From Baffinella frigidus (Eukaryota > Cryptophyceae > Cryptomonadales > Baffinellaceae): DNA of 24,565 bases. Numbering within the stretch: the stretch's first letter is position 1; every line of letters begins with the position of its first letter. The stretch is taken from positions 1,231,340 through 1,255,904 of the forward strand of contig MU646323.1 of assembly GCA_026770585.1 (NCBI GenBank), written 5' to 3'. Below the pieces are notes generated by a model. That model did not search any database. It saw only the letters and a list, made by a program, of their open reading frames with translations, and was not told the origin of the DNA. The position numbers and the translations under genes were made by a program. Shown piece after piece: positions 1 to 24,565 of the stretch.

Positions 1-151
1 CCCCCCCCCCTCCTCTCCCTCTCTCACCCCCTCACGCCATAACCGCAGGTGAGTCTGGGGTTCTACATATATGCTATGGTTACATACCTACCCCCCTTCC
101 CCCCCCTCCCCATCGCACTCTCTTACCCTCCCCCTCTCGTTGTAACCGCAG
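1..151 (+). other. Upstream intron with echo of exon a
   Basis: C/T-rich intron sequence. At 41-66 it holds a copy of the acceptor and first bases of exon a (AACCGCAGGTGAGTCTGGGG, then TTCTAC). The real exon has the same bases from about 143. After 66 the copy diverges into C-rich sequence, so this is a duplicated 3' splice site with only the first 15 bases of the exon. Confidence 0.7.
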
Positions 152-223
152 GTGAGTCTGGGGTTCTACCACTCTCTCGCGATCCTGCGGAATGGGACGC
201 TCCTGGCGTGGGGTTCCAACCAG
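152..223 (+). CDS. Gene 1 exon a: RCC1 repeat, first half
   Basis: Reads [15 protein letters not shown] then LLAWGSNQ, which fits the RCC1 core (aG.yHslal...G.l.aWGsN). It follows the acceptor CCGCAG, ends at CAG|gtctac, and is 24 codons in phase 0-0. The intron after it starts gtctacaccctaaacc, so it passes straight from donor into telomere-like repeat. The exon itself begins GTGAGT, which looks like a donor, but the RCC1 match fixes this frame. Confidence 0.8.
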
Positions 224-3200
224 GTCTACACCCTAAACCTCAATCCCTAAACCCTCAACCCTAAACCCTAAACCCTTAACCCTGAACCCTAATCCCTAAA
301 CCCTAATCCCTTAACCCTGAACCCTAAACCCTAAACCCTAAACCCTAAACCCTAAACCCTAAACCCTAAACCCTAAACCCTAAACCCTAAACCCAAAGGT
401 CTTTCCTCAGCCCTAAACCCTACGCCCCAAACCCTACGATCTGAACCCTGAACCCTGAACCCTGAACCCTAAACCCTACACCCTAATCGCTAATCCCTAA
501 ACCGTAAGCGCAAACCAGGCGGGACAACTGGGGGTGCCGGATGACTCGCCTGGAATGCGGGTGCGCTGCCCCTTAACCCGATGACTACTTTCTTGCAGAA
601 GTCAACGTTTGATTTGATGAAGTAAAGTGGCGGGAAATTCATTGTTAGCAACATTCAGAGGGCGACGAAGCATCGATTTCACGACAGCACGCGCTGGTGG
701 TTTCGAACCACACGCGTGCTTCTGTTTGATTCCGTTTGTGTTTCGTGAGAAACACACTCGTCGGTTTGATTCCGTTTGGGTTTCTAACGAGGAGGGGCCG
801 CGGCAGGTGCACTCCCATTCGGAGATTTCGTTCTGCCCTACTCCGCGCGCGCTCGGTACTGCTTCTGCTCCTCGTTATTGATTTCAGCTTTTCGAAAATG
901 CATCAAATTAACTATTCTTTCGGAGATCTCCCACTCCTCGTGCGCTCGGTACGGCAATCCAATGGATAATGTAGTGTATTTATTGTTTAATTTGTTTTGG
1001 CAACGAAAATTGCTGCACCGAAGGATGATACCAGTGATGTTAACGCAATGGTGTATTAATTTTTATTACCAAACACCGATTGAATTGAGTGATTTCCTCT
1101 AAAGCTCTTAACTTCTAGAGTTGTTGCACGAGTTGATTGTGAATCGCCATTAACAACGTACTTGTTCAACAACGTTAGATGCAAAAAAACGATAGGCACA
1201 CTGGCCCAGTATTGAGGCGGGCTCGCACGTGGCGCGTCCAATTGTCGTGTGTCCGCGTCCCAGTTCCAATGTGTCAACCGTCTCTTTCAATCGCAGATTT
1301 TTCGTCCGAAGGCGGGCTCGTGCGAGTCACGTCCGCATCCGCGGGCTTCGCGCACTCAGCGTGTGTGCTTGAGGACGGACGCGTGTTCGTGTGGGGCGCC
1401 AACTACGACGGCCAGCTCGGACGCGGTACGGCTTGAGTGCGCGAACACGACTTTAAACCTTGAAACCTAAATCCTGAACCCTAAACCCTAAATCCTAATC
1501 CCGAAACCCTAAACCCGAAACCCGAAACCCGAAACCCGAAACTCTAAACCCGAAACCTTAAACCCTAAACCCTTAACCCTGAACCCTAAACCCTAAACCC
1601 AAACCCTAAACCCAAACCCTAAACCCAAACCCTAAACCCTAAACCCTAAACCCTAAACCCGATCGCCAAAACCCCAAAATTTAAATCCCAACCCCCACCA
1701 GGGTTCAAGATCGGCGACCAAATCCAGTGGCCAACAGGAAAGATCCGGGGAGATTGGCGCCCGCGCGCCGTGGAGGGTTTTGGGCCGCGCCCGGGAAGGT
1801 CACCCGCTATTTTCAGCACCGAATAACCTTCTAAGCTGAATAACCCTTGAAGCCACACAGCGGGCTACGAAGAGATTGGTGGTGGGCGAGCCAGCAAGTT
1901 TTGGTTAGGATGTCCGTAGGAACAACCATATGCCCTGCGGATGTCCTGCCGTAAGGTCCTATTTACTGATGGTTTATACACGAAACCCTTTTTTAGTCCA
2001 CAGTGTGGAGCGGGGTGCAGAGAAGTTGGACCTAAACACGCACCACGAAACACACGGCCCTGGACCCTCAACTCTGAACCGTACCCACGACGGCACACAG
2101 GGCGCCAGCGTTTTCGGTGGGTGTCGGAAGCTCGCACACCATCGCGCTCCTCCAAGCCCCTCCACCTACCGCTGGTTTGAACCCTAAACCCTAAACCCTA
2201 AATCCTAAACCCGCGCCCCTCGTTCTCACTCGAACATCAGTGACTGATATCCTCAACCCTCAACGAGCATCTGTGACTGACAGCCACAGCGTTTGTTGTG
2301 GGTGTCGGCAGTCCCCACTGGTGAAGACCATAAACCCTAAGCCCTAAGCCCTAAGCCCTAACGCCGTCGCGCTTCTCCAAGCCTCCGCGCAAGGTTTGGG
2401 GTTTGGGGTTTGGGGTTATGGGTTGAGCTTTGGGGTTTAAAGTTAAGTTTTGGGGTCTAACATTTAGGGTTTAGGGTTGAGTCGACCAAGCCCCGCCATC
2501 TACCGCTGGTGTGAACCCTAAACCCGAAACCCAAAACCCTCAACCCGAACCCCGAAACCCGAAATCCGAAACTTCAAACTCGAAACCCGAAACCCTAAGC
2601 TAGTCCAACCCCTAAAGCTGTTAACCCATAAACTCCAAACCCTAAAACCCTGACCCCTGAACCCACACCTCTAAACCCTCAACACCAAACCTTAAATTTG
2701 CAGCACGACAAGAAGACGCATCCATGGAAAGTCAAGAAAGTCACCCAGCGGGGTCGGTCGGGGTTCCCGGTAGCTCTCCTTCGGTCGGAGATCCCGGCAG
2801 CGCTGCTGGTGAGCTTTTCTTCGAGGGGGGGGAGGCGAAACCAGCTGAGGGTGTCTCGGCTACCGGTGCTGAGCCCTAAACCCTAAATCCTAACCCCTAA
2901 ACCTAAACCCTAAACTCTAAACCCTAAACCCTACACCCTAAACCCTAAACCCTAAACCCTAAACCCTAAACCCTAAACCCTAAACTCTAAACCCTAAACC
3001 CTAAACCCTAAACCTTAAATCTTCCGCACTAAATCCTGAGCCGTTAACCACGAACCTCAAACCGCAAGCCCCAACCAGCCGCGGCCAATCCGGGAGGAGT
3101 TGGGGAAGGAGGGGAGGAGCAGGGGGAGTGGGGTGACAGAGGGCTGGAGTGGAGCGTGAAGGATTGGGAGGTCAATCCCAAACCCGAAACCCGAAACCCA

Positions 3201-6200
3201 CAATCCTAGAACATCAAACCCTAAACCTCAAACCCCAACCCCCAAAACCCAAAACCCAAAACCCGAAACCCAAAACCCAAAACCCAAAACCCAAAACCTA
3301 AAACCCAAAACCCAAACCCTAAACAAGGTTCCGGAGGGGGGGCATCCTCAACCCTAAACCCAAACCCACAACCCTAGCTCTGCCTGAGTTAATCTGGTCT
3401 CCTCAAAATGAAGAGACTGGAAGTTGATTTCCCGGGTCTGTGTCACGAACCCGTCTTTGGTGTGAAAATTATCACTCAACCCGAGTCAGGAGGAGCTAGT
3501 AATTCCAAAACCTTAAACCCCAAACCCCACACCCTAAACCCTAAACCGTAAACCCCAAACCCCACACCCCAAACACTCAACCCCAAACCCGAAAGCAGGT
3601 TCCGGAAGGCGAGCATCCGGACGTGGTCCCGCCTCTGGCGCTCAGCTTCGAGAACGTACACTCTTTACCCCACATCCTACACCCCACACCCTACACCCTA
3701 CACCCTACACCCAACACCCTACACCCTACACCCTACACCCTACACCTTACACCCTACACCCTACACCCTAAACCATTAACCTCAATCCTGAAGTAGACAC
3801 ACTAGTTCCGGCTCTCGAGAAACACATAAACCCTAAACCCTAAACCCTAAACCCTAAACCCTAAACCTTGAACCATTAACCCTAAACCCTAAAAACAAAA
3901 CCTGGAACAGGCGCCGCATGTTGACGACTGGGGAACAGCGATCGATGAAGGCAACATGGCGGAAGAAAACGTACCCTAAACCAGAAACCAGAAACCAGAA
4001 ACCAGAAACCAGGAACCCTAATACAGACGCCACATGTTGACGACGGAGGGACGGCGGTTGATGAAGGCACCAGCACGGAAGCCATGCGGCAGACCCTGAA
4101 CCATCAAACCTATCCCTAAATCATAAACCTGTATATACCCCAAATTCAGTCGCCACATGTCGACGACGGGGGAACAGCGATTGATGCGGAGAACATCACG
4201 GACGCCATGCGGGCGCGGGCCGCGAGGCAGGGGTTCGACGTCGGACCCTACGAGATTGAGCCTACCACCGAGGTTGTGCCCCTGCCTTTCTGATAGGAGT
4301 AGGAATTGATAGGAGTAGGTTTTTACTCCTAGTAGTAACCTAATCCTAGTAGAAAACTCCTATTGGGAAACTCCTAGTATGGGTTAACATCACGGAAGCA
4401 ATGCGAGAGCATGAGGCGAGGCAAGGTTTCGACGTGTGGTCGTACGAGATTGTTCCTACTACTGTGGTTGGGCCCCTATCTCGGGGGTTTAGGGTTCATG
4501 GTATTAGGAACTAGGCGTACTAGGAGTAGGAGCACAACAGGGGAGGTTGCGCCTGTAGGAATAGAGTTGGTCTTTCGAATAGGAATCGGGGTGTTTTTTT
4601 GTGGGATCATGTTCCTGCTCGACAGAGTCATGTTATCTAAGAAAATAAACCCTAACCCCTAAACCCTAAACCCTAAACTCCAAAAACCCAAACCCCGAAC
4701 CCCGAACCCCGAACCCCAAACCCCAAACCCCAAACCCCAAACCATAAACTCTCACCCCAAACCCCTAAACCCTCAACCCAAAACAGGAGCACATGTTCCC
4801 GCTGGACCGAGTGATGTTCCACAGAGACTCGAACCCGTACGTGCAACGCCTTCCCTCAATTCGCCAGGTAATCTTCCCTCAACCCTCAACTCAAAGCCCC
4901 TCACCCTAAACCCTGAACCCTAAACCCTGAAAGGTATCAATCAACGCATTCTCTGAGATCAACTCTCGCATGCTCGTTGTCCTGCTCGTTGTCCTGAGAA
5001 ATTTCCCGATTGTAGGGTTTAGAAAACAAATCTACACCCTACACCCCAAAAACAATTCTACACCCTACACCCTCAACCTGTTTTCACCAACCAGGGTTGG
5101 TGAGCCCTAAACCGTGCACCCTGAACCCTCAACCCCAACGTAGGTGTGGGTCCAAGACGAGTTGCTCCCGCGACTGAACCTCTCACAAGTCGAGTGGCGG
5201 TCCACACCCTAAACCCTAAACTCTAAACCCTAAACCCTAAACTCTCAACCCTAAACCCTGAACGCTTAATCAAAGTCGTGGCATCAGGGCCTGCCCTAAA
5301 CTCTAAACCCCAAACCCTAAACACTAAACCCTAAACCAGGAACATTACGGAGGAGGAGGCTGAAGAGTTCCAGATGCCCTACCCTCAGCAGTACCGTGAC
5401 GGGTGTGTCTTCCCTCAACCCTAAACCCTACACCCGAAGCCCCCTGTGGATGCTGTGGATGCATCGCAGATAACTGCTTTCTTCTTGGTCGCGTTATTTG
5501 CTATTGACAGATATGGTGAATGCCTTTCCAGGTACGGCACGGCGAACCCCTCGAAGGAATCCGTCCAGAAGCTTCTGGACGATTTGAGAGCGATCTACGT
5601 CTTTCTCAATGGTCGCGGTGTTCACTATCAACAGATACCTTGTGTACCTCGCTAGGTGCGGAACAGCAAATCCCCCGAAGCAGTCAGTCCAGAAGCTTCT
5701 GGACTATTCGAGAGCGATCTACGTCCTTCTTAATGGTCGCGTTGTTTGATATTAACAGATACCTCGTGAGCCTTTCCAGGTACGGCACGGCGAATCCCCC
5801 GAAGGAATCCGTCCAGAAACTTCTGGACGATTCGAGAGCGATCTACGCCCGGCATAACGGGGACGCGATCCAACCACGATCGCAGGCACGTTCCACCGAC
5901 CAATTCTTTGATTATTTTGCATGAGTTAATTCCACACTGCGGGCTACGACGGGACTTTCGGCACGATTCTGACCGACTTTCCGTTACCTTATCCGTAGGA
6001 ACCCCCGTATGCCGCCACGGTATTGTCTACCGTATGTATTATCCCTTTATGGGTTATTCACGAAATCCTTTTGTAGTCCGCTGTGTGGTCTTACCTCGTT
6101 CGGGGCCTGATATTCCGAGACGCCCCAGAGAGTAAAATTTGGTTTTAAGCTAGTGAAAATTCAGTTCTTTCGTGTATCCCTGAAAGGCTTTGAAGTGTTA

Positions 6201-9200
6201 AATTCTGACTTCTGTAAAGTAGTTGATCGTGCGTGTGGTTCAGGAGGAGTCTACCGGGATCTGAAAACGGTCATCTGAATGAGCGAGGCCACTCAATTTA
6301 AACCGCCTTTTATGCTATCTTAAGGGTGGATTTTCTCTTATTTTTTTATGTTAGCTTCGACATAGCTTTGATATAAGAAAAAATCCACCCCAAGATAGTA
6401 AAAACACGGTTTCAATTGAGTGGCCTCGCACATGAATCTGTGGCTTCGACCTCCGGCTCTTTTCCGCTCCAAAGTTGACGAATTTGTACCGCACATCCAG
6501 CGTGTCAACTTGAGAAAAGTCTGCTAACCCGAGTTAATTCCGACGCCAAATGTGGTTCAGGAGGAGTCGGCGCTCTGCAAAGATCTGGAATCGCTCATCT
6601 GCGACTTCGAACTCCAGTACGTGCAGAGTTTGGGGGTTTAGGGTTTGGGGTATAAGGTTTAGGGTTCACTCCCTAGAAAGGGCACCCAGGTGTACGTAGG
6701 GTGCTTGCTACCTTGAAGAGCTCATCTGCGATTTTGAACTCCGGTACGTGCTAGGTCCACACAGTGGGCAACTAGACTAATAACCTTACAGCCTAAGTGC
6801 CGTTACAGCCTAGTTAAGCCTAGGTGAGCTGCCTGGAAACGCTCATCTGCGACTTTGAACTCTGGTACGGGCAGGGTTTCGGTTTACGGTTTAGGGTATA
6901 GGGTGCAGGGTTTACTCCGTGGAAAGGGCGCCTAGGTGTCCTTAGAGTGCTATCTTGAAGAGCTCATCTGCGACTTCGAACTCCGGTACGGGTAGGGTTT
7001 AGGGTTTAGGTTCCTCGGTGACAAACGAAGTCCTTGGGAAAGTGGATATCCGACCGTTTGGATTGGGACCGAAGAGAAACGTTAACCGAACCCGACCCCA
7101 CGAAATCCTCCTCTCACTTTTTCCGGGGAGTGTTGCCGAACAGAACCTTATGGTTCCCTAGGCTCATAACCCTACAACCTACGTGCCCTTACAGCCTAGG
7201 CCCCCACACAATTGACCGAGCCCGACTATTCGAAGTAATCCCCACGATCTTTCCAGGGAGTGCTACCGGACAGCGGCGCTCGCGGAAGACGATTTCAACA
7301 AGTCTCTCGCCCGCGGCAACTTCGCCCAGGTGCTTTGGTTTATGTTTATTCTGTAAATTTCATCATGTCAATGCACAGAGCGCCGAAACCTCGAATCTCT
7401 GACGGATAGCACCATAGTTTCACTGTGATGACATCCGTGATGACACCGTGATAATTGAAGATGTGTTAAATTTTGCAACACCGCTCTACTTGCAAAAAAA
7501 CAAATATTGATGATTGAACGAATCTGTAATCTCATTTGGTCAGGTATTTGATTTCAATGGTTCGGAGTCCCCCGAATGCAAGAATTTTACTGCACGTTTA
7601 ATCATACTAGTAATAATAAGGGCTGGACGTGACAAACGTGTAGTAAATTTCGTGCATTCGGGGGGACTCCGAACCATTTCAATCAAATACCTGACCGGAT
7701 GAAATCAATCCCTGCGACCCCCCACAGGCGCGCGTGTGGGCGCGCAAAACGCGACGGGCGCTGAAGCTTGCGGGACATGAGACAGAGGGACAGGCCAAGT
7801 GCGAGATGTTGCTCAAGTCTGTCAACGAAGCCGAGGTACTCTTTCAGAATACCCTCTCTCCCTATCTCTCGGCATCAATATGTTGTGTTGTCTCTCTCGA
7901 TCGTGCTGCTGACAGTCGTCTTTCTCTTGATCCCGAACAGAAAGTGTCGGTAGTAACAAAACGTCGCGTGCCCTTTCTCCCGAGCAGAAATAACTCTCTG
8001 TATATAGCACCATGCTCAAATACAGGTCTAATACATGTCTTTACTAATACATTTCGTTACCGTTAACCCCGAGAGCAGACAGCGGCAGCGAAGCGCGCGC
8101 GGGACGAGTACATCCCTCTGTATCTTCACTCCATCTATCTTGGCATTCACAAAAAAAATCACCCTCTCTTTCACTCGAACAGAAAGCGGCAGCCAAGAAG
8201 GCGCGGGACGAGTACATCGCGGAGGAGGAGCGCGACGACCCCGACGGCCGTGTCTTCAACCGCACCACCCTCGAGTGAGCCCCTCGTCCCTACACCCTGA
8301 GAGGGAGAGGGAGAGGGAGAGGGTGAGAGATGGAGGGGAAGAGAGAGAGAGAGAGAGAGAGAGGAACACACAGACAGAGCGAGAGGGTGAGAGGAGGAGT
8401 ACATTGCGGAGGAGGAGCGAGAAGGGCGTGTCTTCAGTCGCACTACCCTCCACTGTCTCCCTCAACCATGAACCCGAAACGCGACCCTCCAGTGCATCCC
8501 TCGACCCTCAACCCTAAACCCTAAACACTAAAACCTAAAACAATTAGCCCTACACACTAGACACCATATCCTCAACCGCACTACCCTGCAGTGACTCTCT
8601 AAACCCTAAACCTTATTCTCCAAACCCGCACACCCTAAATCTTCAACCGTATTGCCTTCGAGTGAGCCACCCGAATCCATTGTGGAGTCCTAAACCCTAA
8701 ACCCTCGACCCCAAAACAGGTGGGAGCGCCGCTCCCTCAAGCACTTCCCAGTCGACACACCCTAACCCCTCGATAAACCGTAAACCATAAACCCCACACC
8801 CCAAGGTGGGAGCGGCCATCACTGATGCACGCCCCGATCGACAAAGACACGATCGAGCACCTCCCGTCTGGCTACATCCGTCCGGCGCTCCTGAACAATA
8901 TTATATAGTGTAGAACAATATATATTGTATACCATATATACATATATATATATACATATATACATATATACATATATACATATATACATATATTTACATA
9001 TATTTATATATATATTGTATAAATCATCTCGCGGTTTTGAACCTGGACCCAGGTGGGAGCGCACTTTGAACCCTAATCATAAAACAATCAAACCCCGAAA
9101 CAGGTGGGAGCGGCCCTCACTGATGCACGCCCCAATCGACAAAGACACGATCGAACACCTCCCCTCGGGGCAGCCTCCGGGTAGCCCGGGCTACCTCTCA

Positions 9201-12200
9201 ACCATATTCTCCAAACCTTTCCCCCTTAATCTTTAACCGCACTACCTTCGGGTGATCCACCCGACCCGGGTGTTAAACCCTAAACCCTCACACCAGGTGG
9301 GAGCGGCCCTCACTGATGCACGCCCCAATCGACAAGGACACGATCGAGCACATCCCATCAGGCCACATCCGCCTGGAGCTCCTCTACGGCGAAAACGTGC
9401 ATCAGCTTGAGGCCTGGCTGCAGAAATCTCTAGGCGACCCAGGTGCAATCCCATCTCGGAAGATAGCTGAATCAGCTTCGTTTTGTATGCTGTGTTTGCT
9501 GTTATGTGTGGCATGTTAGGGTGGTTTTTGTTATGTTGGGCATAAAGCCTAGCATAGCATAGCATAGCATATCATAGCATATCATAGCATAGCGTAGCGT
9601 AGCGTAGCGTAGCGTAGCATAGACACCATCTAGTGCATCCCGCCAGGCTACATCCGCCTGGAGCTCCTCTACGGCGAGGACGTGCATCAGCTTGAGGCCT
9701 GGCTGCAGAAATCTCTAGGCGACCCAGGTAACCCGAAACCTGCAACCACAAGCCCATGACTTAAGCCATAAACCATACATCCGCCTGGATTTCCTCTACG
9801 ACAAGACTGTGCACAACCTCGAATCGTGGCTGCAAAAATCTCTAGACGACCCAGGTGCGAACGACCCCGAACGTAGCCCCGAAACCCTCAACCTTGGCGT
9901 TGCTCCAGGCTTAAGCCTGGAGGTCCTGTACGGCGAGACCGTGCACCAGCTTGAGGCATTGCTGCAGGAAATGTTGCAGGACTCAGGTAACCCCGAAACC
10001 TAAACCCCAAATCAGAAACCAGAAACCAAAAACCAGAAACCCAGGCGCCGTGGTTACGAAGAGAGAGAGCGGAGGCCCGGTCAAGCTAGAAGCAGCTATC
10101 CAGGCCAATTTTGTCGTGTTTCAAACACGAAATACATGTGTTACAGATCCTGAGGTTCGTTATGCAAATTCCTGGTACAAATCCTGAGGGTTAACTTTCT
10201 GCAAATTCTCACGTGTGACCTGGCGTGGAGCAGGCACCGTGATTACGACTAGAGAGAACGGAGGCCCAGTCAAGATGGAAGCAGGCAATCGTACGTGCTT
10301 CTACCCAATACATCTCCTACGGAAACCTTAGACCCTAATCCCGAAACCCGAAACCTGAAAACCGAAAACTGAAACCCTAATCCTTTTTCTTCTTTACTAA
10401 CCAGGTGCGGTGATCACGACGAGAGAGAACGGCGGCCCAGTCAAGATGGAAGCAGGTGCCAAGGGCCCCGACCTCTCCACTCCAAAGTGGCTCGAGGTCT
10501 CCTCAACCCTAAACCCCATAACCCTGAACCTCAGCCTCTGAAACCTAAACCATAAACCCTAAAACCTAAACCCTAAACCCCAAACTCTTAACCCCAAACC
10601 CTGAACCCTAATGTCTCAACCCTAAACCCTAAACCCTAGACCCCAAACACTAAACCCTAAACCCCAAACACTATCCCTAAACCCTAAAACCGTAAACCAG
10701 GAGGGGGGTCTGCGAGACCCGACGGACACCGTTCTGGACGTGGCGAGCGAAGGCTGGAATGCCTTCCAGCGAAAGGTGTGTTCCCAACCCTAGACGCTCA
10801 ACCCTGAACACCAAACCCTAAACCCTAAACCCTAAACACTAAACCCCAAACCCTAAACCCTAAACCCTAAACCCTAAACCCTAAACCCTAAACCCTAAAC
10901 CCTAAACCCTAAACCCTAAACCCTAAACCTTGAATCCTTAACCCTAAACCCTTCACCCTGAACTCTAAACCCTAAACACTCTAAAAGCTAAACCCGAAGC
11001 CCGAAACCCTAAACCCCAGAACCCACACACCAAACCCCAACCCCTTAACTCTTCAGTGTCGCGTGTGTGCAGGGTGGCGAGGCGAGCGGGGTGGAAACCC
11101 TAAACCCTTATCCCTATACCCTATACCCTCATCCCCAATCCCTAACCCCTGATCCCTAATCCATAATCCCTCGAGACACTAACCCCGACGCCTGAAACCC
11201 CAAACCCCTACACCTCAAACCCCAAACCCTAGCAGGGAGGCGAGGCGAGCGGGGTGCTCCGGGTGGAAAGTGTGAACCCGCGATTCGGAGGCACGGAGGG
11301 TGAACAGGTGACGTGCCTCCTTTCTCCTGCACTCTACACCCTAGACGCCGCTCATCCTCTGAGTCTTGAACCATAAACCATAAAACATAAAACATAAAAC
11401 ATAAAACATAAAACATAAAACATAAAACATAAAACATAAACCATAAACCATAGACCCTGGACCCTAAACGGGGCGAAGCCAGCGGGGTTCTGCGGGTTTA
11501 GTGTAGGGTACTTGGGTTAGGGTTGAGGATTTAGGAGAATCTATGTTCGGAGGCACGGAGGGCGAAGAGGTTACGCGCCTCTTCTCATGCTTTTGCTCAG
11601 CCTGGTGATCCGTGATCGAGTGTCTGTTTCATCCCTCAAACCCTATACCCCGAAACCCCGAACCCTAAACCCTAAACCCTAAACGCCGCGCATCCTCTCA
11701 ACCCGAAACCCCAAACCATAAAACATAAACCATAAACCCGAAACCATAAAACATAAACCATAAACCCTAACCCATAAACCATAAACCATAAACAATAAAC
11801 CCTAAACGCTAAGCCCCAAACCCTAAACCCTAAGCCCCAAACCCTGAACCCTACGCCCTAAACCCTAAACCCTGAACCCTGAACCCTCATCCCTAAACCC
11901 TAAACCCTAAACCCTAAACCCAGGTGGTGCTAATAAGAGGGTACGGTTTCTCCTCCTCTGCCTCCTGGCAAGTCTCTTTCGACCGGACAGGTCAACCCTA
12001 AACCTCAAACCCTAAACCCTAAACCCTTAACCCTAAACCCTAAACCCTAAACCCTAAACCCTAAACCCTAAACCCTAAACCCTAAACCCTAAACCCTAAA
12101 CCCTAAACCCTAAAACNNNNNNNNNNNNNNNNNNNNNNNNNAAACCCTAAACCCCAAACCCTACACCCTAAACCCCAAATCCCAAACCCCAAACCCCCAA

Positions 12201-15200
12201 CCCAAAACCCTACACCCTACACCCTACACCCTGAACCCTCAACCCTCAACCCTAACCCTTACACCCCAAACCCTCAACCCCAAACCCTACACCCTAAACC
12301 TCAAATCCTACACCCCCAATCCTACACCCCAAACCCCCAACCCAAAACCTTACACCCTACACCCTGAACCCTAAGCCCTAAACCCTCAACACCAAACCCC
12401 AAACCCCAAACCCTCAACCCTAAACCCTAAACCCTAAACCCCAACCTTCCACCTACAGATGCGCCGGACGAGGAGAGTGCAGGGGACGACGCTCGCATGC
12501 GCGACTCTGGGGAGGAGGGCGAAGTGGGGGGGGCAGGGGGGGGAGCACGGATACCCGACGAAAGAGGCTCCCTTTTTGACCATTCCGGGGGGTCGTCGAA
12601 AGTTGACACACCGCAAAAGTGGCTTGGATCGGGGGAAGCTTCTCTGGTAGATGCGGAGTGGGTCACGCATCGGGTCCTGGCGTTTAGGGCGCCGGAGGGG
12701 GGGGGGGAGGGCCGCGTCACCGTCCGCCTCTTCAGGTATCGATAGTGTATGGTTTTGGAATTGGGGATCGGGGTTTATGGGTTGTGGACTTCAGTGGTTT
12801 GGGGTTTACAGCTGCATAGGAGTTCGAGTAGATCGTGGATGGTTTCTCCAGGGCGTTTAGGGCGCCGGAAGGGGGGGGGCAGGGCCGCGTCACCGTCAGC
12901 CTCTTCAGGTGCCGATTTAACGCGAAATCGGATTCCATTTACAAGCCGTTGTGTGCTATTTTAAGGTTGGAATTTCCTGAGATAGAAAAGGGGTTATAAA
13001 TTGAATATGGTGCCGTACAGGCTCCGCGCACAACTTTGCGCACCCTAAAGTCTTAAGTCAATTACAGAAACGGAGAAGAGGAGGTCTCGCGCGCGGCATA
13101 TCACTAAATGGGGTTACAAACCACATCGGATTTCACATAATAGTAAACGCTCGCATGACACTCAATGGGGCTTTAAATTACATCTGGTTTCACATTGCAG
13201 TAACCTCCACATCTCCGCGCAGGAACGGGAAGGAGGTCTGGGACCTCCCAGGAGGCTACGAGTACTTCGACGCCAAACACCGCTCAATCATCGCCCTCTC
13301 CATCACCCTCCGATACCGAGGCATGGCCCCGCTGGAAAAGCCGCTGACGCCAAAGGAGAAGGCGAAAGAGGCGAAGATCGACGAGTTCCACGATGATGTA
13401 TGCAGGTAAAGATGCCCCCTGCCACACAGCAGGCTACGAAGGTATTTGTTTGCCAAATTCTAACCAAAATCGGTTAAGATACACCCTAAACTACACCCTA
13501 AACCCTAAACCTTAAACCTCAAACCCTAAACCCTAAACCCTAAACCATAAGCCATAAACCATAAACCATAAACCATAAACCATAAACCGTAAACCCCAAA
13601 CCTCACACCCGAAAACCGAAATCCGAAATTATAAACCCGGAACCCAAAACCGAAAAGCCAAACCTAACAACCACCAAACCCTATCCCCCGCAGGCAGCAG
13701 ATAGCGTGGATCGAGAAATTCGGGTTCCGGAACCACTCTGCCGAGGCTGCGGGGTGCGCCGACCAGCTGCAGGTGTCTCACCATGACCTTGCACCCTGAC
13801 CTTGCACTCGATCTACCGCACTCGATCTTCGACTCTGAACGACCAGGCTCACTCCTGAAACCCGAACTCCAAAAACCCCGAAACCCGAGTCCCTAAGCCC
13901 TGAACCCAAATTTCTAACGTCTGGAGCATAAATCCGATACCCAAAGCCCGAAAAACGAAGCGAAACGCGAAGGCTAAGCTAGATAGCGTGGCAAAATGAG
14001 CGAAAAGCGAAAGCTAAGCTAGATAGCGTGGCTCGAGAAAGTCGCGTTTCGGAACCACTCTGCAGAGCCTGCGGAGTATGCCGACCACCTGCAGCTTTCA
14101 AACCCGATCCCCGAAAACCGAAACACGGTACCCGACACCCGAAACCCTAAACCCGAAACCGACAAATCCGACACCCTAAACCCGACACCCTAAATCCGAC
14201 ACCCTAAACCCGACACCCTAAACCCGACACCCTGAACCCTAAACCCGACACCCTGAACCCTAAACCCGACACCCTACACCCTAAACCCGACACCCGACAT
14301 CCTAAACCCGAAACTCGTTTGCTCCGACAGGAATCACACCTGCGGCTGCTAGCACTCGACCCAGAGCGGGAAGAGTCTCTCCACAACCTCGCGATCTTCT
14401 TCGAGGACATCCGAGGCGACTGGGAGTCCGCTGCTGCTGCGTGGCGAAGGTCTCTTTCTCCTCTCAGTCTCAGAAATTAATTTATTGAAATAATTAAGAG
14501 GAAAATACGTAGTTATATTCCTCGTAATCCTCCTAATAAATTCATTTATTATCTTTAGGGCGTCCGTATTAGACACGTTTCGTCACTCGGCATTCGACAT
14601 TGTGAGACACTCCGTACTAGACACTTTGGGGGCATGTAGTTGAGTACCAAACAACGTCACAACTTGCTTCTGAATGCGTTGAAAGAGGGGCGCTGGGATA
14701 GACTGAGGCAGAGCGGGTGGAGTGTGAGACCGAGGCTCGTCACCTGTCCGACCGAGACTCATCACCTGTCCGACCGAGGCTCATCACCTATCCGACCGAG
14801 GCTCACAGAGTGCCAGCATAACCTGGCGGTCTTCTTCGAAGACATCAGAGGGGACTGGGAGTCTGCTGCTGCTGCGTGGCGCCGGTGCTGCATTTTAGGG
14901 TTGGGTGTTTACTGTGTCGGTTTTAGGGTTTAGTGTGTCGGGTTTAGGGTTTGGGGTGGAGTTGGAGGGTGGAGGGTTCACTGTCAAGAGGGCGACTGGA
15001 ACGCTGTCTAGTGTAGGGTTTGAATTCCCGGCGGAACCGGAGGGTTGAGGGTTGATGGCTTAGGGTGTGCACACCTAAGGAGCACCTACGCGCGAAAGCC
15101 CCTATCAGGTACGATCCGAGCGAGAACGTCGCGGTGCGAATTTGTACCGCAGACCCAGCATGTCAACTTTAGAAAAGCTATTGTGAAGTTGACATATTGT

Positions 15201-16998
15201 GAAGTTGACATAGCTATTGTGAAGTTGACGCCAACCCGACCGAGGTAGGTTGGCTTCTTCTTCTTCTTTATTACTCTCGATACAGGTCCTAGATGAGGCC
15301 CTTGAGCCTTGAGTTGAGTGGTACAAAAGTCTATGAGCCTTAAGACACGGCTGGGATCAGGTAGTTGGAACTGATTCATTCTAATCTGCGCGAAATCCCC
15401 GAATCAGGTACGATCCGAGCGAGAACGTGACGGCGCTGGAGCTGAGGCAAATGAATGTTCAGGCAGATGCCATGGTATGTCGAGCCCCCCTCGACTGTGG
15501 ACTTTCCCAAACACTCAGTGTTACTTTACAGACGCTCATAATATGTTTGTTTTACAACCATGATGTTGACTTTTCCAACTTCACTATTGACTTGACGAAA
15601 ACCGAGCAGGTTTCATACCAGGAAGATCACTGATCCCGGCAAGCTTTGCACCAGGAAAAACTGTGATTATCAGAAGAATGTTTGTCTCCGAAACGAGGAG
15701 TGTTCGTCAAGTCAATAGTGAAGTTGTCAAAGTCAACATTATGTGTGTAAAGCAAACAAATTATGAGCGTCTGTAAAGTAACACTTGCCACGCGACGACC
15801 ACCTGTGACCCAAACACCTGTAAAAACCATTTACAAGTATTATACATGGTCACGAACCCGAAACTTAAGAGGGTCATGGATGAGGTTCGGCAACTTTCGA
15901 GAGGGGTCACAGATCTGTGACCCGGTCACAAGTCGATCCGTGAACTTCGAGATCGAGATAAAAAGATTTTAAAATGTCAGCACCTCACGAAAGGATCATT
16001 TTAATGGACGTGATGAGAAAACATGTTTGAAACAAAATCATGCAGGGGTTGTGATGTAGAATATATCCATTTACGGTACGTAGTGAGTTTAAAACTTCTT
16101 TTTTTCCTTCCCATTCTACTTTTATGCGGCGGTTCGAAAAACGAGCCGTTGTACCAGGATTCGACTTGTTGGACGCAACGTTTGGGTCACAGGTCGTCGT
16201 CGAGTGGTGAATCTGTTTGAATCGCAGGTTGTGAAGAAGACGCCAGAAGAGGAGCACTACGAACAGGCTCTCAACGACTACATCGACGTACTCAACCCCG
16301 CCCGACGCCAAGAGTTGCTCAACAGCAACCTCAAACCACCTTTTGCCGGAATTTCTGTAAAGCAACTCGGGAACCATCGGGAACCATCGGGGACCCTGGG
16401 GGGGCATCGAAAACTCTCGTGAACCATCGTGAATCATTGAAAACTCTCGAAAACCATTCAAACCCCTCGGGAACAATTGAGGCCCCTGAGGAACCATTAA
16501 ACCCCCTCAGAGACCCAGGGGAACCATTGAAACCGGGCCCTGAGGGACCCTGGGGAGATATTGAAACCCCCCGGGAACCATCGGGCACCCTTGAAACCCC
16601 TCGGGAACCCAGTCGGGAGAACCGTTGAAAATCCTCAGGAACCATCGGGCACGGTTAAACCCCCTCAGGTACCCTTGGGAACAAACGGGAACAATTGAAA
16701 ATCCTCGGGAACCCTGGGGAGCCATGGAAAACCCTCGGGACCCCATGGGAACCTTTTTAAACCCTCGGGAACCATCGGGAACCCTGGGTATCGTGTGGTG
16801 TGTTTGAGGAGTATTGCGACCAGGCTTTCAACTACTACATCGACGTAAGCTGGTACTAATCGTGCCCGGTCTCGTCCCTCTCCCTGTACAAACCCTGACG
16901 TTTTTAGTCAACTGCCTCCGCAGGAGGAGCTTCCAGAAGAAATGAGGGAGACCGCGCGGCTGGCGCCCCACCTCATCCGATGGTCTTTCCCCCCCCCC

Positions 16999-17037
<39 letters not shown>

Positions 17038-17749
17038 TCCCTCTCTCTCTCGCGCGCGCGCTCTATCTCTTTCCCTCTCTCGCTCTCTCTCTCTCTCTTT
17101 CCCGCTCTCTCTCTTTCCTCATCCGATGGTCTTTCCCCCTCTCTCTATTTCCCTCTTTTTAAAAAAGGTTTGCTGTTTTGTTTTGGAGGCTTTGGGATTT
17201 TTAGAGGTGTATTGGTTTTCATTTTAATGTTTATTGGGTCCAACCTTTAAATATTTGTGCCAGGGCCTTATACGATGGTCCGCCCCGACTTTTTTCAGAG
17301 GTGTGTTGTTTTAATTTACAGGGGGTGGTGGGGGGTCAGAGGTTCATTGGTCCCCATAAATGTTTGGATTGGTCCAATGGGTCCAATGGGGTATTGGTCC
17401 AATGGGGTACCCCATAAATGTTTGTACGAGGACCCCATCGGATGGTCTGCCCGGATTATCTTGAGAGGTTGATGAGTCCTGGTATAATCATGAGTGGGGT
17501 TTCCTTATACAAATTTGTTTCAAACGTTTTCTTGGTGCAAATCTTTATAGATTTTGCTGGTGGTAGGCTTTATGGATTTTCCTGGTGAAAAGAAGAAGGA
17601 GAAGTGGCACGTGCTGTGCCACGTCCTTGTCACGTCTAACTCACTGCCTGATAATTGTACGTGACAATTCTTCCTCTATAGCTAGCTAGATAGATAGATA
17701 GATAGATAGATAGAGAGAGAGATAGATAGGTAGATAGATAGATAGATAA

Positions 17750-17784
<35 letters not shown>

Positions 17785-18047
17785 TGTATATTTATACATA
17801 TATGTATACGTATACATATATGTATAGATAAAGGTAAATGTGTTTGTATATGTATTTAAATATATGTATATATATATAATACTCTCGTTCTAACAGCGGG
17901 ACGTGACAGGCCCTGGACGAACGTGACCGAGGACATTCCCCAGGGACGCTACTCGTGGCATGGGACGTGACACTTCTTATCCTTCTTAAATTTATACAAC
18001 ACTCTCATATATATATTCAAATACATATGTATGCATATGATAATCTC

Positions 18048-18082
<35 letters not shown>

Positions 18083-20259: not shown

Positions 20260-20282
20260 TTCTCGAGAATTCTCGAGAATCA
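20257..20282. promoter_or_regulatory. 26-bp perfect palindrome at the gene 1 stop codon
   Basis: TGATTCTCGAGAA followed by its exact complement. It starts with the stop codon TGA and contains two direct TCTCGAGAAT units. It could form a hairpin or cruciform, or bind a dimeric protein. A single GCCTGATTCTCGGACCTCC echo is at 20430-20448. Confidence 0.6.
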
Positions 20283-20295
20283 GGTTATGGGAGGC

Positions 20296-20298
<3 letters not shown>

Positions 20299-20326
<28 letters not shown>

Positions 20327-20363
20327 GGTGGGGGAGGGCTGGAGAGAGAGAGAAAGAGAGAGA

Positions 20364-20399
<36 letters not shown>

Positions 20400-20410
20400 G
20401 GCGAGGGAGA
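20299..20410. repeat. GA / GT microsatellite
   Basis: GAGA blocks around a TGTGTG run. The ORF through it is an artefact. Confidence 0.9.
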
Positions 20411-20449
20411 GGATGGAAAGGCTAGGACCTCGCCTGATTCTCGGACCTC

Positions 20450-20871
20450 CGGGGGTGATCCCTACGGTTTAGGGTTTATGTTTTAGGGTGAACCTCCTGT
20501 ATATATGCGGTCGAAGGACCTTATGCCCTGCTCAGGCATCCGGGCCTTGGAGGGTGGTGTGAGTATTAATAAAAGGTCTCACTCTCTCGGAGGCGCCCGT
20601 GCCTATCCCGTAAGGGCCCATACCTGTAGGGCGAATATTCACCCTCACTCGCTCTAGGCGGGTCCGAGGGCCCTACCGTAGGGCGTACGAGTCACTTAAG
20701 GGATAAGACTGCCCATTCTCTCTCTCGGGTAGCGGCCGTCTCCTGAACCAAACCCTCGAGGTAATGCCTCGCACACCCCTGAGGCAATGGTTCCGGAGGA
20801 CTCGCGTGCGCATGACCTCACCTCTAAGGCAGGCTCCGGCATAGCCGCTGTGGGGGTGCATACAGGGGTAC
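20450..20871. other. Intergenic region, nothing coding seen
   Basis: GC-moderate unique sequence with short repeated bits such as CCGTAAGGGCCCATACC, CCTGTAGGGCGAA and CCCTACCGTAGGGCG, but no exon with matching splice sites and no RNA gene that I can recognise. Confidence 0.5.
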
Positions 20872-20980
20872 CTCGCTCATAAGAAACCGCCCCCTCCTAG
20901 GACCCTACAGTAGGCCTATGCCTAGGGTCCTATGATGGTCCTAGCGGGGGGGCGGTTTCTTATGAGCGAGGTACCCCTGT
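20872..20980. mobile_element. Foldback MITE-like element F
   Basis: 109 bp, almost entirely palindromic: ACAGGGGTACCTCGCTCATA at the left continues to AAACCGCCCC, and the complement of the right end is the same. Loop CTACAGTAGGCCTATGCC. TA on both sides of CAGGGG...CCCCTG suggests a TA target duplication. Confidence 0.88.
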
Positions 20981-21004
20981 AGAGCGCTTGATCTGTTTCG
21001 ACGA

Positions 21005-21147
21005 GGGGTACCTCGCTCATAAGAAACCGCCCCCCCCCTTAGGACGGGGGACAGGCGAGATATAATAAGTTGATAAATCGACGGCGCACGCTAGGGTGAG
21101 GGATTAGGACCATCATAGGGCCCTAGGCATAGCCCTACTGTAGGGTC
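21005..21147. mobile_element. Rearranged second copy of element F
   Basis: 21005-21045 repeats the left arm (GGGGTACCTCGCTCATAAGA...). 21103-21147 is the inverted copy of F's loop region (TAGGACCATCATAGG...CTACTGTAGGGTC). The right arm is missing and about 55 unrelated bases lie between. Confidence 0.75.
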
Positions 21148-21416
21148 AAGCAGTGGACGTGGGACGTGTGTTCGTAATGAAGGTCTCTCTCTTTCTTTAT
21201 TTAAGGGTCGGCGCAACCCTTTCCCTCCCCCCTCCCCGGGTTAACAGCCCCAGCTTGTCTGCCGTTGTCATGAAGCACAGCGTATTCACTTGTAAACAGT
21301 TGAGTTATGGTATCAAGATCGTGTTAACGAAATAAGTAATAAAGAAATTATTGAATTTCCTAATTGTATGGCCCACAGCCCCACATTGGATTTTTATCAT
21401 GACGCACAGAGTATTT

Positions 21417-21472
21417 ACCTTCTCGCTCTCTCTATCTCTCCCTCCCTCCATCTACCCCCCCCCCCTTCTTTC
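21417..21472. repeat. CT-rich microsatellite
   Basis: TCTCTCT and CCCTCC runs. Confidence 0.85.
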
Positions 21473-21544
21473 TGAATACATCTGGGCGAACGCGTCAGGG
21501 GGCATTTGCATATTTACAGCCAGAAACCCAAAACTTCAACCTAG

Positions 21545-21625
21545 GAATAGTCACTTAACCCGACTGAGGCGGAGCTAGAGCTCACCTGAGCCACACAGCG
21601 GACTTTGAAGGGATTTCGTATGTTA
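21545..21625. mobile_element. Fragments of elements H and A
   Basis: 21545-21575 (GAATAGTCACTTAACCCGAC) matches the tail of element H. 21591-21622 (CCACACAGCGGACT then GGGATTTCGT) matches the right end of element A in reverse orientation. Confidence 0.65.
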
Positions 21626-21660
21626 TATAGTGACCTGGCGTGGACGTGGACGAGTCCTCG

Positions 21661-21901
21661 TATTGTACTTTTCGGGTCAGCGCGGATTTTGGGTCGGGGT
21701 CGGGAAGTCGGAAAAAATCGAAAATATCGAAAAAGGGCTCTAGTATTTGTACATATTATGGGTGGGGGGTGCATCTTGTCATCATATCAATGCATAAGAC
21801 AGCATAAAACTTTAGATGGACGCATCGATTTTCGAGATTTTCATTTCCCGACACCCCGACCCGACCTCGAGAAAATCCGCGCTGACCCGAAAAGTACAAT
21901 A
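21661..21901. mobile_element. MITE-like element G
   Basis: Arms of about 70 bp: the left is TATTGTACTTTTCGGGTCAG then CGCGGATTTT...GGTCGGG, and the complement of the right is nearly the same. TA at both outer edges is consistent with a TA target duplication. The loop is about 80 bases, no ORF. Confidence 0.83.
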
Positions 21902-22190
21902 CTGGTCTAGGTTGCGAGTCAGGCAAAATGGTAACCTTAGCGGGGGACTTGTTTGGACGCGACTCTTGTACAAAAAAAATACATGACAGGACTTGACTTC
22001 CTTCAATATCTTCAAAAGTGGACATATGTACCAGGTTCCTTCAGATGAACACTCCTTCTGACACTCTGGCGTGGTATGGAGCAATTCTGGAAAACGTTGC
22101 CAATCCTGAAGCCTGAATTCCATCTCGCGTAGAGATTATCTCGAGGGTTATGAAATCAAGAATCAGAGTCCCCGGGCGGCACACAACCTG
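21902..22190. other. Intergenic region, nothing recognised
   Basis: Unique, moderately AT-rich sequence. No exon, RNA gene or repeat that I can support. Confidence 0.5.
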
Positions 22191-22590
22191 GTTAGGGTAT
22201 AGGGTTTCGAGTTTCGCATTTAGGGTTCAGGGTTCAGAGTTCAGGATTCAGGGTGGAGGGTTAGGGGTTCAGGGTTCAGGGTTCAGGGTTCAGGGTTCAG
22301 GGTTCAGGGTTCAGGGTTCAGGGTTCAGGGTTCAGGGTTCAGGGTGGAGGGACTGGAGTGAGTGTTGCGGGTTGAGGGCGGAGAGTCGAGGGTTGAGGGT
22401 TCAGGGTTCAGGGTTCAGGGTCGAGGGCTTGGAGGTCTCGAGTTGTGTCGCGCGGTGCCTAAGCCTGCATCCAGCACTGTTTCGGGTTAAGGGTTTAGGG
22501 TTTAGGGTTTATGGTTTAGGGATTAGGGATTAAGCTTTAGGGTTTACGGTTTACGGTTGAGGTACAGGGTTCAGGGTTCAGAGCGATTCC
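22190..22590 (-). repeat. Reverse telomere-variant array, GGGTTCA block
   Basis: GGGTTCA units (about eleven perfect) at 22265-22345 and GGTTTAGGG units at 22485-22560. They lie between genes, so these arrays are not confined to introns. Confidence 0.9.
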
Positions 22591-22618
22591 AGGGAATGTT
22601 GGCCGCTTTTCGATTGGC

Positions 22619-22772
22619 TGATTTGCTGGTTTGTTCATTTCATTCGTACCATAATGGTTTTTACGTCCTTTCAAAAGGCACCGCTTCGAGAATTGTGGTG
22701 CAGGGGAAATGAACAAAGCACCAAATCAGGTGCAGGGGGAATGAACAAAGTACCAAATCACCAACCCAAAAA
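22619..22772. repeat. Inverted and tandem repeat around AAATGAACAAAGCACCAAATC
   Basis: Two direct units of about 31 bases (GGTGCAGGGGAAATGAACAA... and GGTGCAGGGGGAATGAACAA...) at 22698-22759, with an inverted relative (TGGTTTGTTCATTTC) at 22627-22641. Possibly a degraded foldback element. Confidence 0.6.
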
Positions 22773-23076
22773 GCGGGCAAAATTTCCTCGAATATCTCTA
22801 GCACGGTGTGTCGTTCTAAGTATGCACGGTGGATTTGGACACGGAGCATAAGTCAACCCCTTTATATTGTGGTCCTTTTAGGTCCTTTATGTACATAGGA
22901 AATTCTTCCCTTTCTTAAGTCCCAAAGTCAACAAAAAGCTCAAATCCGAGGGGTTTTAAGCGGTCGATTTAGCCTAGAACATGTTTACCCCCCTCTCAAA
23001 TCCCCCAAAAGTTTGACTAGAAACGAGATTTTTTCAAAAAAAAATCAGGCGCACTTTGTTGACCCGGTTGCGCACG
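22773..23076 (+). other. Upstream region of gene 2
   Basis: No telomere-like repeats; moderately AT-rich with a run of A at 23037-23044, 33 bases before the ATG. It should contain the promoter and 5' UTR. A TATATTG at 22862 is too far away to call a TATA box with confidence. Confidence 0.35.
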
Positions 23077-24509
23077 ATGGCGAGCCGATGCCCCCTCGCG
23101 CTCCTCGCCCTGCTGCTCACCGTATGTTCCGCAGTGCCCTTGACGCCAACGCCGTACACTAAGCTCCTCAGCTTCATCGGCGCGTGCTCGCCCGGGTGCG
23201 TCGCTCCCCTATCCCTCCGCAAAGCTCTTTGCTCGGTGACGTAAGTTTTCTGCCCCAGAAACACGACCCTCAGTGTCTGACACGCTCAACCCCTGGGCCT
23301 GCAGGTGCTTCAATTCCGCTGTCAACAATTCAAAGTGCAACCCGCAGTGCATGACCGCCCCGTGCCACTACGACGGCCCGGATTGTAAAACCGGGTGAAC
23401 TTCCCCCTCTTCCAGAAATTGCGTTGGCGAGACCACCCGTCTATACGCCCTGAACCCTTCCTAGCGCGCACCCATCGACCAACAGCTCTCTGCAGGACAG
23501 CTCCAGCGAGCGATTCGCGAGTCGCTGCCAGCGAGGTTGACAACCAACCACGCGCTGGCATGTCAACCACCCATGCCGCAGGTTGCCTCCGCTCGCTCCG
23601 CAGACGGATTACGACGAGAGCGCGCGGAAGCTCGCGGAGACTGCCGCCTTCCTGCCCCTCGGAACAGACCCGACCCTCGGCATCGACGTGCAGGTCCTGT
23701 CTCAGACCATCCTCAAGTTGACGTGCGGGGTTTGCGGTACAACCCCGTCAACTTTGGCGCGTAGAAGCGCCTGGGCGCACCGAATTGGTGAGCGCGAAAA
23801 AAATGAGAAAGAGCATGAGGTCCGCGCTCCCCTCCCCCGTCTCGCGCGCGCTGATTCTGACCACACACGCAGCCCCGGTCGACGAAGCATAGCTCTGTCT
23901 CAGTCTGTTCTCTCTCCCCAATCTGCTGACCCCGAGCTCGGTCCTGCTCCAAAGTTGACGGGTTTGTACCGCGAACCCAGCATGTCAACACGAGAATAGT
24001 CCGTCACCCCCCCCCCTAAACGGAGCAGTTCCCGATGAAGCACCGCGTGCTCTGGCCGTCGCAGCTCAAACTGTACCTTACAGTCTATTCGATCTCCCCA
24101 GTTTGCTGATCCCAGACTCTTCCCAGCGCAAAGCTGACGGATTTGTACAGCAGATCCAGCAACGTCAACTTGAGAATAGTCTGTCAATCCGACTGGGGCA
24201 GAGGGAGGAAGCAGTCAGCGCACTCCCTTCCCCCCGACCTCATTCCCCCTCACCCCCCCCCCCAGGAAAATGGTTCTGATTTAAAACTTTCTGGCAATGA
24301 AATTTAGTGCAATGAATGAGTTTTACTGGTAATATTGAAGCATTCGTGTAGTAATTTTCATTGAATCCAAAGTTTTTGGATTAAAACCGTTTTCCTACGA
24401 AATGCAGCTCTTCCCGATCAAGCATCGCACGCTGTGGCCGTCGCAGCTCGAACTGTACCTTGCGATTTCCCAGTTTCCTGACCCCAGGCTCTTCCCAGCG
24501 CAAAGTTGA
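23077..24509 (+). CDS. Gene 2: secreted LNR (Lin-12/Notch repeat) protein, multi-exon
   Basis: Exons, all phase-consistent: 23077-23240, 23305-23394, 23416-23438, 23496-23535, 23582-23693 and 24408 on. The ATG at 23077 opens a signal peptide (MASRCPLALLALLLTVCSA). A Cys-rich part follows (SFIGACSPGCVAPL, ALCSVTCFNS), with an LNR core C-x9-C-x3-C-x4-C-x6-C ending HYDGPDC. Known: LNRs bind calcium in extracellular proteins such as Notch. Downstream are a helix (QLQRAIRESLPARL) and TDYDESARKLAETAAF. Exon 6 reads LFPIKHRTLWPSQLE, LYLAIS and runs to a TGA at 24507 inside element H sequence; its true end may be a donor instead, so the C-terminus is uncertain. Introns here are short (64, 21, 57, 46 nt) and free of telomere-like repeats, unlike gene 1. 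An ATG-free upstream extension in frame (to 23056) is unlikely to be used. Confidence 0.72.
23395..23415 (+). other. Candidate 21-nt intron in gene 2
   Basis: gtgaacttccccctcttccag has GT and AG ends and a pyrimidine run. Splicing joins CKTG to NCVGETTR in frame. If retained, the reading frame ends at TGA two bases into it, giving an 86-residue protein that stops just after the LNR. Confidence 0.5.
23714..24000. mobile_element. Foldback element H, full copy
   Basis: Two arms of about 100-130 bp in inverted orientation. The left is 23714-23760 onward (complement: CCAAAGTTGACGGGGTTGTA) and the right ends at 24000 (CCAAAGTTGACGGGTTTGTA at 23949). Translations of the two strands resemble each other (PSTL...IGERE and APKLTGLYR), as expected of a foldback. 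It lies in intron 5 of gene 2. Confidence 0.75.
24026..24187 (+). pseudogene. Echo of gene 2 exon 6 plus element H arm
   Basis: 24026-24075 reads QFPMKHRVLWPSQLK, LYLT, a copy of exon 6 (LFPIKHRTLWPSQLE, LYLA), followed by an H arm (24080-24187). The exon 6 copy at 24408 is followed by the same arm (24465-24563), so exon and element were duplicated as a unit of about 380 bp. The acceptor here is CGGAG or GAGCAG. Confidence 0.72.
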
Positions 24510-24565
24510 CGGATTTGTACCGCAGATCCAGCAGCGTCAACTTGAGAATAGTCTGTCAACTAGGG
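24455..24565 (+). repeat. Element H arm, third tandem copy
   Basis: CAAAGTTGACGGATTTGTAC then CGCAGATCCAGC.GCGTCAACTTGAGAATAGTCTGTCAA, near-identical to 24130-24187. It overlaps the last codons read in gene 2 exon 6. Confidence 0.8.

Follow-up and report, generated by a model that had tools for sequence, protein, structure and literature searches.

We analysed a 24,565-nucleotide (nt) stretch of DNA from the cryptophyte Baffinella frigidus, called the window below, in which gene 1, encoding an RCC1-repeat-bearing protein, is accompanied by many partial copies of its own exons, here termed echoes. The species is indicated by a deposited protein, P0001 ("hypothetical protein T484DRAFT_1766197, partial [Baffinella frigidus]"), which was found with the spliced gene 1 model and tiles onto the window. 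Gene 1 was modelled one exon at a time, guided by splice edges and phase. It spans positions 152–20259 of the forward strand, with its 5' end beyond the window, and comprises 33 exons (3,003 exon nt and 17,105 intron nt) from which 1,000 amino acids were read. Addition of exon b2 to the model removed its sole phase break, leaving all 33 exons in frame with one terminal stop. Along with this open spliced frame and P0001, Pfam matches identified the product, with two RCC1 families above the cut-offs and WD40_RLD and TIG matches below them. The intron after exon k has an apparent GC donor (5885–5886, GCAG followed by intronic gcacgt), which the phase demands.

A relative of the product, P0002 (595 amino acids), aligned with residues 211–640 of the gene 1 model at 46% identity. 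Sixteen exon peptides (d, e, e2, g, h, j, k and m to u) scored at least 40 in P0002 with their order kept, which is evidence that the right copy was taken as the working exon in these 16 cases. Exons w, x, y, z (in a shorter form) and za are also present in P0001, and phase is the sole basis for exons bb, cc and full-length aa. A search of viral contigs for relatives of P0002 gave six pattern matches, none of which was confirmed.

In the search for echoes the query was an exon extended by 15 nt at both ends, and the target was the 1.5 kb to its left and right, on both strands. As a control, 200 random sequences per exon were drawn from the dinucleotide frequencies of that exon, the 99th percentile of their scores serving as the threshold for that exon, and trivial matches of the query to its own flanks were removed before counting. 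This gave 45 same-strand matches from 22 of the 33 exons. The match of exon j at 3855–3878 was dropped, as a telomere-like flank supplied 15 of its 23 query bases (score 31, above the random maximum of 28). The final set therefore consists of 44 local, same-strand partial copies of 21 of the 33 exons, with an identity to the exon of 0.74–1.00 (median 0.86). Forty-two of them, from 20 exons, beat the best of the 200 random sequences; one piece of an e echo (30 against 31) and the cc echo (28 against 28) did not. Only four inverted matches were found, two of k and one of cc in palindrome-like stretches and one of aa below its random maximum. Beyond 1,500 nt a single exon of the 33 had a marginal match (j, 31 against 30, with 60 random sequences). 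The exon echoes of gene 1 are confirmed as real, as the initial annotation had reported, and they show the direct orientation and the closeness to the source exon that local tandem duplication requires. The four examples which it had cited were all recovered, at 3313–3347 (f), 7120–7143 (m), 15095–15137 (y) and 11546–11581 (s). Copies were also reported for exons c (1297–1425) and bb; none exceeded our threshold, and the exon letters may differ between the two analyses. In P0002, none of the 33 exon peptides had a second place scoring above shuffled sequences, P0002 being a distant relative that covers only part of the gene.

An echo was taken to keep an exon edge when it stopped no more than 4 nt short of that end of the exon. 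One edge was kept by 36 of the 44 echoes, both by three and neither by five. Echoes that keep the acceptor edge lie upstream of exons a (exon 152–223; echo 40–66), f (3599–3655; the echo given above), g (4150–4272; 3908–3963 and 4016–4089), k (5780–5885; 5516–5599 and 5654–5726, both in tandem with intron), l (6561–6616; 6234–6277), m (7257–7329; the echo above, on the acceptor side), o (8183–8274; 8073–8114), p (9297–9442; 8708–8757, 8789–8892 and 9090–9179), q (10405–10496; 10041–10095 and 10231–10285), s (11236–11307; 11069–11093) and y (15408–15474; the echo above, with intron). All echoes are on the forward strand.

Echoes that keep the donor edge were found downstream of exons b2 (807–855; echo 919–955), g (4386–4477), l (6712–6751; 6833–6879, with co-duplicated intron; and 6952–7000, with some intron homology), o (8393–8463, on the donor side with the GT lost; 8569–8594; 8640–8668; and 9230–9266), p (9622–9729 and 9777–9858), u (12459–12735; 12852–12916), x (14331–14449; 14817–14881, on the donor side), za (16924–16982; 17117–17139) and aa (18533–18587; 18915–18950 and 19056–19078), with the weak echo of cc (20216–20259) at 20425–20443. 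The echo of exon e (2101–2174), at 2287–2523, also keeps the donor edge and is broken by telomere-like stretches into pieces at 2287–2311 (the one below the random maximum), 2353–2383 and 2486–2523. A nearly whole copy of s lies downstream of its exon at 11461–11581, in pieces at 11461–11497 and 11546–11581 separated by G-rich telomere-like DNA. Both edges are kept by the nearly whole downstream copy of w (13694–13772; echo 14017–14094, donor GT lost) and by two upstream copies of the whole of aa together with intron (17895–17970 and 18234–18308). The echoes with neither edge are two of the e pieces, that of h (4787–4867; 4608–4634, upstream, starting at exon base 6), one of p (9915–9972, downstream) and that of z (16228–16356 in our model; 16806–16847, downstream), which would become a donor-edge echo if z ends at 16287 as it does in P0001.

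An order emerged when the kept edge was compared with the side of the source exon. Of 17 acceptor-edge echoes, 16 lie upstream and one downstream, and all 19 donor-edge echoes lie downstream (Fisher's exact test p = 2.3e-9), so that 35 of the 36 single-edge echoes obey one rule, the truncated copy standing on the side of the edge that it retains. This rule was absent from the initial annotation. The lone exception, s 11461–11497, is the front piece of the nearly whole downstream s copy. Counted by exon, the rule holds in 23 of 24 edge-and-side combinations (p = 3e-6), which is the safer figure because copies within one exon can be related. Six introns hold echoes of both neighbouring exons, and in five of them (g-h, l-m, p-q, x-y and za-aa) all echoes of the left exon come first. 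A single event duplicating an exon end, the intron and the start of the next exon was rejected, since the left and right echoes fail to alternate in these five of the six introns.

We then compared the sequence beside each copied edge with the flanks of other exons, at the 0.05 level. Flank homology was detected for nine of 18 acceptor-side echoes (a, k twice, l, m, one of p, y and aa twice) and for four of 20 donor-side echoes (g, l twice and za), about one being expected by chance in each group. The proposal that the copies often carry neighbouring intron is thus clearly borne out for these echoes only. Exon k shows it clearly, lying within a 124-bp tandem unit of 2.6 copies in which intron was co-duplicated. 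In 40 tests for an echo running on into the neighbouring exon none was positive; together with the intron carried by part of the set, this bears out the view that the copying was local, repeated and at the DNA level, and speaks against a processed RNA source. Past the inner end of the echoes identity averages 0.25 (35 copies), the chance level, so the ends are sharp. These ends also bear on an assembly artefact or merged haplotypes as the origin of the echoes, for which a 25-base N gap and the plentiful simple repeats in the window might speak. Merging errors should give near-identical blocks, and the sharp ends, the order rule and an identity of 74–100% do not resemble that; with differences of up to 26% between copy and exon, a simple error of assembly is improbable, and we consider such an origin scarcely credible.

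Our favored explanation, with a probability of roughly 0.6, is that many short direct duplications of DNA, each across one exon-intron boundary, left the echoes behind. If the duplicated stretch began in the upstream intron and reached into the exon, its second copy would run on into the remainder of the exon and stay the working one, and the first would be left upstream with an acceptor edge and a truncated exon; if it ran from the exon into the downstream intron, a truncated copy with a donor edge would stay downstream. Selection may then retain boundary duplications, because the full exon survives, while duplications inside the coding part would be lost, since they alter the protein. The likely source would be local break or fork repair in the repeat-rich introns, by staggered-break fill-in or template switching; patch-mediated tandem duplication and polymerase-theta insertions are further mechanisms that come into consideration. 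Local duplication proved to be general and not specific to exons. Among 73 non-exonic 75-nt windows, placed so as to avoid exons, echoes and most telomere-like DNA, direct local duplicates were present for 16 and inverted ones for 14, eight of the latter falling in foldback elements (described below); direct duplicates in 16 of 73 are what a general process should give. Exons searched without flanks gave a direct match for 16 of 33 and an inverted match for one. Exons are duplicated more often than intron windows, perhaps because one copy is conserved.

Several observations weigh against this reading. In intron o-p one echo of o (9230) lies beyond the echoes of p. The copies of u, of p at 9622 and of aa at 18915, each 92% identical to its exon, lack the intron homology of a plain tandem unit, so that either fast turnover of intron flanks, which we infer, or insertion of short patches must be added. 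The differences between echoes and exons are spread unevenly over the codon, with a third-position share of 0.53 against 0.42–0.44 (standard deviation, sd, 0.03–0.04) in simulated copies that were dead from birth, the simulation including the alignment step. Finally, at 105 amino-acid differences between exon and echo, P0002 matches the exon in 36, the echo in 18 and neither in 31, with 20 unaligned. Neither this bias nor the 36:18 agreement with P0002 fits copies that never coded.

The short patches are what local templated insertion would produce. In this alternative, a broken intron is mended with a short patch copied from nearby DNA, and telomere-like repeats are added as filler. Besides the three highly similar copies without matching intron, the telomere-interrupted copies agree with it: the e copy is split in three by telomere-like stretches, with apparent overlaps of exon sequence of 3 and 7 nt, and the s copy is split in two with 19 exon nt missing. 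However, templated insertion gives no reason for the edge-and-side rule or for the scarcity of inverted copies, whereas direct duplication across a boundary does predict the rule. The ends of the copies do not favor it either. The initial annotation had described abrupt breaks into telomere-like DNA, and the breaks are abrupt, but at 35 inner ends telomere-like sequence made up a mean of 0.35 of the next 30 nt against a background of 0.39 (one-sided p = 0.68). The idea that such filler marks the ends of copies was accordingly rejected; for the interrupted e (2287–2523) and s (11461–11581) echoes filler is suggested, and these interruptions would fit insertion into copies that already existed. 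Taken together, templated insertion seems to us unlikely as the general origin of the echoes.

The telomere-like DNA has a pronounced orientation. Counted as exact 7-mers in the introns of gene 1 (224–20215), CCCTAAA-type repeats in the sense direction cover 2,124 nt and TTTAGGG-type repeats 256 nt, arrays being present in 25 of the 32 introns; 22 introns lean to CCCTAAA, three to TTTAGGG and seven to neither (p = 1.6e-4). Within one mismatch, the two types cover 4,985 and 996 of 17,080 nt, compared with 1,144 and 305 nt in one shuffled sequence. As the CCCTAAA sense repeat contains neither GT nor AG, it may be neutral for splicing, and the C-rich sense may be tolerated for this reason. The orientation bias of the intron DNA yields a testable idea of splice neutrality.

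The uneven differences are the strongest hint toward exon turnover, in which whole exons would be tandemly duplicated, both copies would code for a while and one would then be truncated, making the echoes former exons. Across the 44 copies, differences at first, second and third codon positions numbered 67, 48 and 131, and with only the best copy per exon 26, 18 and 57 (21 copies). The third-position bias persists in CpG, other G/C and A/T sites, so that base composition was rejected as its cause, as was selection by the alignment. Copies simulated with an omega of 0.5 gave a third-position share of 0.53–0.58, a range that includes the one observed. Two stop codons were present among the 44 echoes, and insertions or deletions in ten. 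The preference of P0002 for the exon state, the whole or nearly whole copies of aa (two), w, s and e, and the use of six echoes in P0001 would also suit former exons. Against this, the order rule would need the part nearest the full exon to be lost in almost every case; the predominance of copies with a single edge, and chance identity directly past their inner ends, are not what decaying whole exons should leave, and the bias amounts to only about 3 sd in copies that are partly non-independent. We regard turnover as decidedly unlikely. In a wider form of the idea, the exons of this genome would continually duplicate themselves alongside, old and new would both serve, and the loser would be truncated into an intronic echo. 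This is speculative and, in our estimate, unlikely; if true, the coding-like divergence of the echoes would be its trace, and the structure of the gene would be self-renewing with a protein that stays collinear with its relatives.

Splice sites and the deposited annotation were examined next, as they concern the possibility that the echoes are working alternative exons. Outer splice sites at least as strong as the weakest real site were present in 12 of 16 acceptor-type and 18 of 19 donor-type echoes, with a shift of 2 nt allowed, and the coding-like bias could be read in the same way. Partner sites at the inner ends, on the other hand, were not above background (combined p = 0.45 for the 16 acceptor-type and 0.33 for the 19 donor-type echoes), and the reading that echoes became exons through new splice sites at their inner ends was rejected for want of enrichment. 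P0001 could be placed onto the window (152–18305) in 30 exact pieces, with one of its 810 residues unplaced; 24 pieces fall in model exons and six in echoes, namely those of g at 3908–3963, k at 5516–5599 (replacing k), p at 9622–9729 and 9915–9972 (extended to 9988), u at 12852–12916 and aa at 18234–18308. Missing from it are exons d, e, e1 and t as well as full-length k, u and aa; of these, d, e, k, t and u find a place in P0002. Since P0001 omits exons that P0002 supports, it looks like a prediction misled by echoes. We find it very improbable that the echoes work as alternative exons, and the suggestion that the copies generate new exons as a general process found no support, though P0001 uses six of them. 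The practical cost is plain, as echoes mislead annotation: this deposited model takes six of them as exons and misses exons supported by a relative.

Several other elements lie in the window. Near-palindromic foldbacks, perhaps short inverted-repeat transposons, were seen in introns and after gene 1 (6279–6433, 7529–7705, 14474–14547, 15517–15785 and 20861–20981). A dispersed element of about 40–75 nt, with ends of roughly AAAGTTGAC and GTCAACTT, occurs within introns of gene 1 as well as around gene 2, with copies at 6448–6523, 15137–15177, 23928–24001, 24129–24192 and 24480–24555 and on the reverse strand at 23703–23771. The stretches 1913–2008 and 5992–6088 are 73% identical and lie 4 kb apart, so the pair may represent a mobile element rather than an echo. 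Gene 2 (23078–24565) has a signal-like stretch and an LNR (Notch) domain at its start (E = 7.8e-8); within it, the 170-nt stretch 24018–24187 repeats at 24400–24559 with 83.5% identity, where the window ends.

How densely the echoes occur in this one gene looks unusual, as do the rule of their order and their setting in introns with orientation-biased telomere-like DNA. Among the best-ranked papers of a literature search, neither this pattern in Baffinella nor such a density elsewhere was described, which is weak evidence of absence, and the available portion of the introner paper (PMC9860276) names neither Baffinella nor cryptophytes. The statement in the initial annotation that no named description exists was nevertheless too strong. 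In the available text on the Exonize tool (PMC12343006), which covers 20 genomes, exon matches are classed as "inter-boundary", partial or intronic; copies that span exon and intron, or that are intronic, are a recognised class there as in gene 1, whereas the order rule and a gene of this density are not reported in that text. As far as the accessible part of PMC2246262 describes them, interstitial telomeric sequences of primates and rodents were inserted when breaks were repaired. Telomere repeats inside other sequence with small deletions, additions and duplications are common to both cases, as the e and s echoes suggest, but the arrays of gene 1 are degenerate, present in 25 of 32 introns and orientation-biased. 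Novel introns in Drosophila arose through regional tandem duplication according to the portion of PMC2891723 at hand. There, as in gene 1, exon sequence is duplicated and one copy turns intronic; in Drosophila, however, a duplicated proto-splice site gives a new intron, whereas in gene 1 existing introns seem to grow.

The closest parallel is the case in PMC4974935, where, in the part of the paper available, a single tandem duplication across one intron-exon boundary left a small ex-exonic piece in the intron. A boundary-crossing tandem duplication that leaves a piece of exon inside an intron is common to both. That case, as described there, involved one event in one gene, whereas gene 1 has 44 copies of 21 of its 33 exons, of varied divergence and with no new use of splice sites seen. 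Boundary-crossing duplications are known as single events, and gene 1 keeps dozens of them of different ages, so that their size and ends, their decay and their influence on splicing could be measured in one place.

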